A DNA stretch of 25,399 nucleotides, taken from positions 1 through 25,399 of IMG/VR virus record IMGVR_UViG_3300042569_001206; one strand, 5' to 3'. Below are positions 1 through 3,616 of the stretch, piece after piece (position 1 is the stretch's first letter; the number at the start of each line of letters is the position of its first letter). The notes under the pieces were generated by a model. It was not told the DNA's origin. It saw only the letters and a list, made by a program, of their open reading frames with translations, and searched no databases. This DNA is from a virus. The position numbers and the translations under genes are program-made.

Positions 1-255
1 CTCACTGTGAGTGCATTAAAATGGAACATTGCCAGCATACGAACTCCCCAGGTCCTGGTCACAGATCCTGAACACATTGAGGAGTTCTTGCGCAATACCG
101 ATAGAAAATTGTTTGTGACCATTCGTGACTTGATTATTGAAAAACGCAGTGTCAGCGAATTCAAACCGGTCAAAATCAAGTGTGTGGCTTGCAACCATGA
201 ATACGATCAAACAGTTACATTGGATCAAACAAGTTTTTTCGGTCAAGCCTCCTAA
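1..255 (+). CDS. gp26: Baseplate hub/tail-assembly protein, gp26-like, C-terminal part (5' end outside window)
   Basis: The reading frame is open from the first base of the window, so this is the C-terminal end of a longer gene. The GTG at 7 is the first possible start inside the window but probably not the true one. The visible 84 codons carry the C-terminal signature I recognise from T4-like gp26 proteins: a predicted helix, the segment KPVKIKCVACNHEY with a CxxC pair, then TVTLDQTSFF just before the end. T4 gp26 (about 208 residues) acts in assembly of the central baseplate hub. The stop TAA is at 253-255. An in-frame slippery heptamer lies 13 nt upstream of it, and the -1 frame runs into the next ORF, so a longer fusion product is likely. 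Identification rests on remembered family pattern; moderately sure. Confidence 0.7.
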   Translation, partial: LTVSALKWNIASIRTPQVLVTDPEHIEEFLRNTDRKLFVTIRDLIIEKRSVSEFKPVKIKCVACNHEYDQTVTLDQTSFFGQAS

Positions 256-264
256 CCCTGACCG
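234..264 (+). promoter_or_regulatory. Candidate programmed -1 ribosomal frameshift site
   Basis: Bases 234-240 read T TTT TTC in the zero frame of the gp26-like gene (codons AGT TTT TTC), an exact X XXY YYZ heptamer. After a -1 slip the ribosome reads CGG TCA AGC CTC CTA ACC with no stop and enters the gp51-like frame, which ends at 470. The -1 frame is closed by TGA at 198-200, so it is open only from 201; the zero frame stops at 253-255. The heptamer lies in this overlap of about 50 nt. Bases 240-245 (CGGTCA) can pair with 259-264 (TGACCG), a 6-bp stem that abuts the heptamer, closer than usual stimulators. The downstream ATG at 282 has no Shine-Dalgarno, which favours frameshifting over independent initiation. 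Confidence 0.65.
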
Positions 265-281
265 CTGACGAAATTTCTGCC

Positions 282-470
282 ATGGTTGATCGCATGGAAA
301 AGGAGGCAAATGATATCAAGGCACAGTGTATCAAAATGTCGTGGCACATGCGCGGTGGCAGCACCTATGAAGATGTAATGAACATGAGTTATCGTGAACG
401 TGGCATGATCGCTGAACTGATCAAGACCAATCTTGAGACCACCCAGAAATCAAAATTGCCATTTTTTTAA
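282..470 (+). CDS. gp51: gp51-like baseplate hub assembly protein, probably made as a -1 frameshift extension of gp26
   Basis: This short, Met-rich and mostly helical protein (62 residues from the first ATG) contains WHMRGGSTYEDVMNMSYRERGMI and ends in LETTQKSKLPFF. I associate that pattern with the small gp51-like proteins encoded after gp26 in marine T4-like phages. T4 gp51 is described as a catalyst of hub assembly; its 249 residues make this version very short unless it is joined to gp26. No ribosome binding site precedes ATG 282 or ATG 294. In the same frame, codons from 240 onward (RSSLLTLTADEISA) look coding and are continuous with this ORF, which supports expression through the slippery site at 234-240. 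The stop TAA overlaps the next gene's ATG (TAATG). Confidence 0.65.
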   Translation: MVDRMEKEANDIKAQCIKMSWHMRGGSTYEDVMNMSYRERGMIAELIKTNLETTQKSKLPFF

Positions 471-3187: not shown

Positions 3188-3616
3188 TTAAATTTTGTTT
3201 ATTATATGTGAGCCATGCACCCTAACCTGGATGTGGCCGTTGTAATAATCTCGTGATTCCAATACTCGTCTTGCAAATTGTTCTCTTGCCTCGATGTAAC
3301 TACATTCTGACTTTGAATTGCAATAGTAAAGTATTTCTCTGGTAAAGTTTTCGGTGCCTAGTTTGATTACGTCTGCGGTTAATTCTGGGCTTGACCCATA
3401 GTACTCTCTCCAATCACTGTCGATCTTGGAGCGTATCTTCTTGCGCTTCTTTGTGCCGTTTTTTTGTTTTACAGTCTTGTATGTTGTTTTTGCGAATTTT
3501 GCTAATTTTTTGCCTATGTACTTGCGTCCAGTGAGATTACATGTGATCAAGTAAACAAATCCTACACATTCTTCGGGCAACGTCTCAATTGGGGTATCTT
3601 GATATAGCCATGTCAT
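3188..3616 (-). CDS. GIY-YIG nuclease-fold protein
   Basis: The protein has 142 residues. The N-terminal motif VYLITCNLTGRKYIGKK (residues 21-37) matches the GIY-YIG signature, with VYL in place of GIY and YIG conserved. A basic linker rich in Lys/Arg follows, then WREYYGSSPEL, a helix, and SYIEAREQF, which could supply the catalytic Glu. GIY-YIG enzymes cut DNA as homing, restriction or repair nucleases. Nothing here shows that it is a homing enzyme, and it is free-standing. It is the last gene of the leftward unit, 42 nt after the radical SAM gene, and is followed by the non-coding region. No good ribosome binding site precedes ATG 3616. Confidence 0.75.
   Translation of the reverse strand: MTWLYQDTPIETLPEECVGFVYLITCNLTGRKYIGKKLAKFAKTTYKTVKQKNGTKKRKKIRSKIDSDWREYYGSSPELTADVIKLGTENFTREILYYCNSKSECSYIEAREQFARRVLESRDYYNGHIQVRVHGSHIINKI

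Follow-up and report, generated by a model that had tools for sequence, protein, structure and literature searches.

The window, a 25,399-base IMG/VR virus record, begins inside a gp26-like gene whose 5' end is cut by the contig edge, and beyond the stop codon of that gene a gp51-like open reading frame (ORF) begins in a different frame. The question raised by this locus is whether these are two genes or a single gene from which two proteins are made through a programmed change of frame. It is very probable that a -1 frameshift joins the gp26-like frame to the extension frame, in the manner of the G/GT tail-assembly chaperones, as an earlier note on this DNA had proposed; this part of the proposal has been borne out by the conservation of the slip site, the coding character of the -1 frame and the lack of a conserved start. 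The computed support consists of these three lines together with the homology of the two parts, one to T4 gp26 and the other to the T4 gp51 tail, and from sequence we infer slipping in cells, a stimulatory role of the stem and a chaperone function. The features concerned are the following.

1..255, + strand: 3' end of the gp26-like gene (zero frame, TAC-N), an ORF with its stop TAA at 253-255
201..255, + strand: overlap in which, by frame reading, the -1 frame is open beside the zero frame
234..240, + strand: slippery heptamer T TTT TTC for a predicted -1 tandem slip, with zero-frame codons TTT 235-237 and TTC 238-240
240..470, + strand: -1-frame C-terminal extension ("T-like" domain) of 76 residues, RSSLLTLTADEIS...KLPFF, with its stop TAA at 468-470
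247..253, + strand: predicted stimulatory stem, 5' arm GCCTCCT, starting 6 nt after the heptamer
301..307, + strand: predicted stem, 3' arm AGGAGGC, loop of 47 nt
240..264, + strand: 6-bp stem of the earlier note (240-245/259-264), present in this sequence, not supported in relatives
282..284, + strand: ATG once taken as the gp51-like start, not conserved, without a Shine-Dalgarno (SD) sequence, not thought to be a start

Zero-frame codons begin at 1, 4 and so on, and AGT TTT TTC at 232-240, followed by the stop at 253-255, places the heptamer in X XXY YYZ register, separated from the stop by 12 nt (the earlier note had counted 13). The -1 frame, whose prior stop lies at 198-200, can be read from 201 to 470 with no stop in between, a point taken from the earlier note and confirmed by direct reading; the gp51-like ORF at 282-470 is the inner part of the longer extension. 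A full-length gp26-like gene was obtained from a near-identical relative (L002:2413-3252, 98% identical over the shared part), in which the predicted short and long forms are about 280 and about 352 residues long, respectively, and share their N-terminal part, as predicted from the gene layout.

In the proposed mechanism, most ribosomes would stop at TAA 253-255 and release the short protein (gp26, TAC-N). A fraction of them, with both tRNAs on TTT-TTC, would slip back by one base at T TTT TTC (234-240) and continue from CGG 240-242, yielding the long protein (TAC-NC) with its 76-residue C-terminal extension, and the stem 247-253/301-307, six nt past the heptamer, would probably stimulate the slip. 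If lambda gpG/gpGT is taken as the model, the tape-measure protein may be coated by the short form and tail-tube subunits may be recruited by the long one, with many short and few long copies per tape-measure protein.

Slip site and coding of the -1 frame

A heptamer found in one sequence could be luck, because 312 of 45,278 other zero-frame positions in the relatives (0.7%) also carry an X XXY YYZ heptamer in register and the overlap is about 17 codons long. T TTT TTC is, however, kept in 171 of 172 distinct junctions from uncultured phages, drawn from three IMG/VR sets in which the junctions are related within each set and so are not independent events, although the sets are very divergent from each other; luck is therefore removed as an explanation. 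In those 171 junctions the heptamer lies 3-12 nt before the stop and the -1 frame runs for at least 173 nt beyond; the lone exception, L166, reads AAATTTTTCC. The earlier note had asked whether the heptamer and the overlap are kept across relatives, and both were found in every window-clade relative examined, down to 39% identity. The same arrangement occurs in the isolated jumbo phages Atu_ph07, RaK2, Hallingskeid, Phosso and XaC1, in 121Q, Munch, GAP32, CBB, XbC2, PA5oct, SNUABM47, Vibrio 2.275.O, SCTP-2, XacN1 and RAS14, and in the cyanophages S-PM2, Syn30, S-CAM8 and C48C1; the jumbo phages among these cover the RaK2/121Q, Atu_ph07 and Vibrio/Salicola kinds. Counted over database phages, T TTT TTY is present in 20 of 21 (all but SP-15), plus phiN3, AsFcp_2 and Vibrio F86, with XacN1, RAS14 and C48C1 carrying the variant T TTT TTT. 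Within this lineage, no relative was found that combines an intact intergenic region, a ribosome binding site for gp51 and the absence of the heptamer.

These comparisons also bear on the idea that a sequencing or assembly indel split one originally continuous gene. Homopolymer runs are error-prone and L166 is without the exact heptamer; yet the same two-frame layout recurs in many independent metagenomes as well as in isolated phage genomes, so that the comparative sequence data appear already to have refuted the indel for the lineage, and its probability is practically nil.

Further support for the slip site was provided by the codons used to write it. The C-terminal FF dipeptides are coded T-TTT-TTC in 174 of 174 cases, as against 2 of about 115 for other FF dipeptides in the same genes, and therefore protein constraint does not explain the heptamer; judged by this codon usage, the slip site is selected beyond protein constraint. 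In T4 and PWKp16, which are phages with separate, divergent genes 26 and 51, the equivalent FF is written TTCTTT, after G.

Other arrangements were seen in three further phages. In Bacillus phage SP-15 (L044:2093-2416) the frame that resembles the extension is offset by +1 (equivalently -2) from the gp26-like gene, a TTTTTT run stands near the end, and a +1 or -2 shift may take the place of the -1 shift. The gp26-like genes of Salmonella phage GG32 (L288) and Vibrio phage K483 (L289) overlap a homologous-looking -1 frame that continues for 161-176 nt, with no X XXY YYZ heptamer in the -1 overlap, which implies another slip sequence or mechanism.

That the extension is translated as protein was examined through pN/pS in 21 window-clade sequences, where the -1 frame gave 0.34 over 256-470 and 0.50 over 256-281, compared with 0.86 to 1.98 for the other frames. 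Past the zero-frame stop and upstream of any start codon, the segment 256-281 has a ratio that agrees with the earlier impression that the peptide between the heptamer and the first ATG looks coding. By this substitution pattern the -1 frame is protein-coding from the slip site onward, and in most lineages the extension opens with the motif FFR.xLL.

The main alternative for the downstream ORF is that it is an independent gene, gp51, started at ATG282 or by reinitiation or translational coupling at the stop. The ATG is in frame, reinitiation would be conceivable at the ATGA overlap of Atu_ph07 and Phosso, and the public records of S-PM2, phiN3 and Vibrio F86 annotate gp51 as a separate CDS; against this stand the start codon itself, the segment upstream of ATG282, which evolves as a -1-frame protein, and the slip site, which is kept at the codon level far beyond protein need. 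As had been noted earlier, nothing SD-like precedes ATG282, the SD core being absent from the 20 nt before it (CCGCTGACGAAATTTCTGCC). The codon is missing from L003-L006 and L009, the first ATG lies 102 nt past the heptamer, inside the conserved domain, in L009, L010 and L126, and among 171 junctions only 8 have a -1 start preceded by an SD-like core. An independent gp51 start was rejected on these grounds (the unconserved ATG282, the missing SD and the scarcity of SD-like -1 starts), and the separate-gene explanation as a whole is highly improbable.

A perfect SD sequence, AGGAGG, does occur within the coding region of the extension (window 301-312), at the place of the predicted stem's 3' arm; it is followed by a zero-frame ATG at 310-312 that opens a short ORF of about 22 codons.

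Stimulatory RNA elements

The earlier note had pointed to a 6-bp stem, 240-245/259-264, behind the heptamer. It pairs in this sequence, but across the relatives 50% of its pair cells form, and it was rejected as an element. The best stem in the window is instead 247-253/301-307 (P 0.02 vs shuffles). All 7 of its pairs form in 31 of 42 clade members, being missing or incomplete in the other 11, and 92.5% of cells are paired in the window clade, compared with 42-62% for slid controls. In addition, the nucleotides of the 3' arm are kept while the residues that they encode vary among KEA, EEA and QEA. Little covariation is seen within the clade (three cells at one pair), RNAalifold called no structure on the window clade, the region of the window folded as a whole does not stand out (z -0.43), and Rfam gave no match within the window; the case for the window-clade stem is thus made by pair counts and per-sequence tests. 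Taken together, it is probable, but not proven, that this stem is real and more than chance pairing.

A clearer picture is offered by the sister clade (L012), in which an equivalent 13-bp stem has 25 double-change cells versus 8.8 in shuffles, with 0 of 500 shuffles as high, and is recovered independently by RNAalifold. Different strong stems lie close behind the heptamer in Atu_ph07, Phosso, XacN1 and S-PM2, and no strong stem was found behind that of the enterobacterial jumbo phages. An upstream element was observed in the cyanophage-like loci (L205-L284), where an SD-like GAGG stands 8-11 nt before the heptamer in 39 of 55 distinct junctions; such an upstream stimulator is found in 0 of 116 junctions of the window's lineage (its two nearest groups). 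The cyanophage GAGG may be partly forced by Glu-Gly codons; at this site GAG is preferred over GAA, 31 vs 13.

The run of six T would also be compatible with slippage of the RNA polymerase, which would produce mixed mRNAs that join the two frames without any ribosomal slip. The homopolymer is invariant and reaches eight T in C48C1. Six T is nevertheless a short run for RNA-polymerase slippage, and three features fit tandem tRNA slipping better: the precise register of T TTT TTC, a G directly after the heptamer in 168 of 171 junctions, and the covarying downstream stem. Transcriptional slippage is thus extremely improbable, and ribosomal -1 frameshifting is the reading followed below.

Relation to T4 gp26 and gp51

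The full-length gp26-like protein of L002 (280 residues) scores above the gathering threshold with PF12322, T4_baseplate (E 1.3e-15), and also matches PHROG 150, baseplate hub (E 1.8e-15), while the fragment in the window, alone, is too short for a confident match (PF12322, E 0.025). A gp26 profile finds T4 gp26 with E 1.4e-10. The AlphaFold model of gp26 is confident (pLDDT 88.8), and in the viral library it is related to T4-like baseplate-hub proteins; against solved structures, tail chaperones included, there was no match by sequence or fold, and the fold search with the T-like domain was uninformative.

T4 gp51 consists of a PF12322 domain (residues 1-201, 177 bits) followed by a 48-residue tail, and it is this tail (200-244) that matches the extensions of the cyanophage, phiN3, AsFcp_2 and Vibrio F86 genes (E 1.6e-5), T4 gp26 giving no match to frameshift extensions. 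The fusion would thus be the counterpart of gp51, and the unshifted product that of gp26. The direct match between the window's own T-like domain and T4 gp51 is weak (a single-comparison E of 0.0086 with a broad profile), and the window extension is linked to gp51 through its relatives. Viral contigs were searched with single-protein queries, the broad alignments A2 and A3 being without conserved stretches for profile searches.

On these alignments, the "gp51-like ORF" is the C-terminal extension of a frameshifted gp26 and not a gene, and T4 gp51 is, by the same homology, the in-frame equivalent of the gp26 frameshift fusion. The former view of the -1 ORF as a whole gp51 has to be abandoned, as it matches only the C-terminal extension of T4 gp51 and lacks its gp26-like domain. 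T4 does not use the frameshift itself: it is without a slip site and its two genes are separate and divergently transcribed.

As for the neighbourhood, no tape-measure gene lies immediately downstream of the extension in the window lineage. The adjacent large gene is divergently transcribed, with a tape-measure PHROG match in L018 (E 6.6e-5) and no match in L002, and is a weak, homology-based candidate for the tape measure. In S-PM2, the gene right after the extension matches a tape-measure PHROG with E 5.3e-21; the product of this gene (L029:31357-34860, after gp51) is 1167 aa long, with tape-measure, phage tail lysozyme and ADP-ribosyltransferase-like matches.

Other genes of the window include a small conserved DUF6614 protein downstream of the chaperone locus (1413-1745, E 3.6e-22), also found in relatives, and, on the minus strand at 3188-3616, a SegE-type GIY-YIG endonuclease gene (PF19835, E 3.2e-33), which by ORF sequence is common to L002, L019 and L012. 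Two overlapping radical SAM ORFs (PF04055; 3659-5589, minus strand) adjoin a gp46-like SMC/AAA gene, the second of them overlapping its 3' end; in L002 a different gene occupies the place of these ORFs.

Known systems compared

This class of frameshift, and at least part of its distribution, is already known. That gp26 and gp51 are the tail-assembly chaperones of T4 goes back to Vladimirov, Gautam & Davidson (2022, Virology 566:9-15; cited by PMC10885494 and PMC12846349), a work that, to go by its title and by PMC10885494, argued for a mechanism other than frameshifting. A 2025 paper, in a passage that cites that work, speaks of poly-T -1 signals in T4-like TAC-N genes (PMC12846349). Two points may be unreported, namely that stimulators were exchanged and that the distribution reaches RaK2/121Q-type jumbo phages, as no report of either was found in the searchable literature, which is incomplete and in which Vladimirov 2022 is represented by citing papers. 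The jumbo-phage and cyanophage records examined carry no frameshift annotation, and the extension appears in them as a separate hypothetical protein, as "gp51", or not at all.

The evolutionary reading is put forward with modest preference: T TTT TTC would have stayed invariant in one orthologous chaperone gene of jumbo phages, cyanophages and some Strabo-type phages, with its stimulators exchanged from lineage to lineage (different covarying stems, and an upstream SD-like motif in cyanophages), and T4-type phages would have replaced frameshifting by a gene duplication that gave separate genes 26 and 51. The predicted frameshift corrects how a core tail gene is annotated in many phage records and makes T4 gp51 the in-frame counterpart of a protein otherwise produced by frameshifting, so that T4 looks like the derived exception; the group also offers a natural series in which the turnover of stimulators can be followed at a slip site that stays the same. 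Aeromonas phage AsFcp_2 (L286; Straboviridae, Angelvirus) keeps the frameshift arrangement, whereas in T4, a member of that family, genes 26 and 51 are separate and divergent, so that the switch between arrangements seems to have occurred within Straboviridae as classified.

A close parallel is G/GT of lambda and of long-tailed phages (Xu, Hendrix, Duda 2004; PMC5009743), which likewise has a short form and a -1-frameshifted long form, with a C-terminal extension encoded in an overlapping -1 frame. It differs in that no solved chaperone was matched by the proteins described here, in sequence or in fold, in that the slip site here is T TTT TTC with lineage-specific downstream stems, and in that the neighbouring large gene is divergent rather than downstream. 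T4 was listed as an exception to G-T frameshifting in a 2016 recoding review (PMC5009743). Its gp26 shares the PF12322 domain with the protein of the window, and its gp51 joins that domain to a tail homologous to the present extensions; the difference is that one gene with a predicted frameshift would give here both of the forms that T4 makes from two separate divergent genes with no slip site. The gp26-gp51 pair of the Kyanoviridae cyanophages, for example S-PM2, has the same T TTT TTC, the -1 overlap and a short extension ORF annotated gp51, but its shift site is closer to the stop, an SD-like GAGG lies upstream in 39 of 55 junctions and the stem is different. Finally, the TAC frameshift of Vandenendeviridae and Andersonviridae, with its GTTTTT motif (PMC12846349), follows the same TAC-N/TAC-NC logic through a -1 shift at a T run; these are different phage families, compared with the present locus by slip logic.
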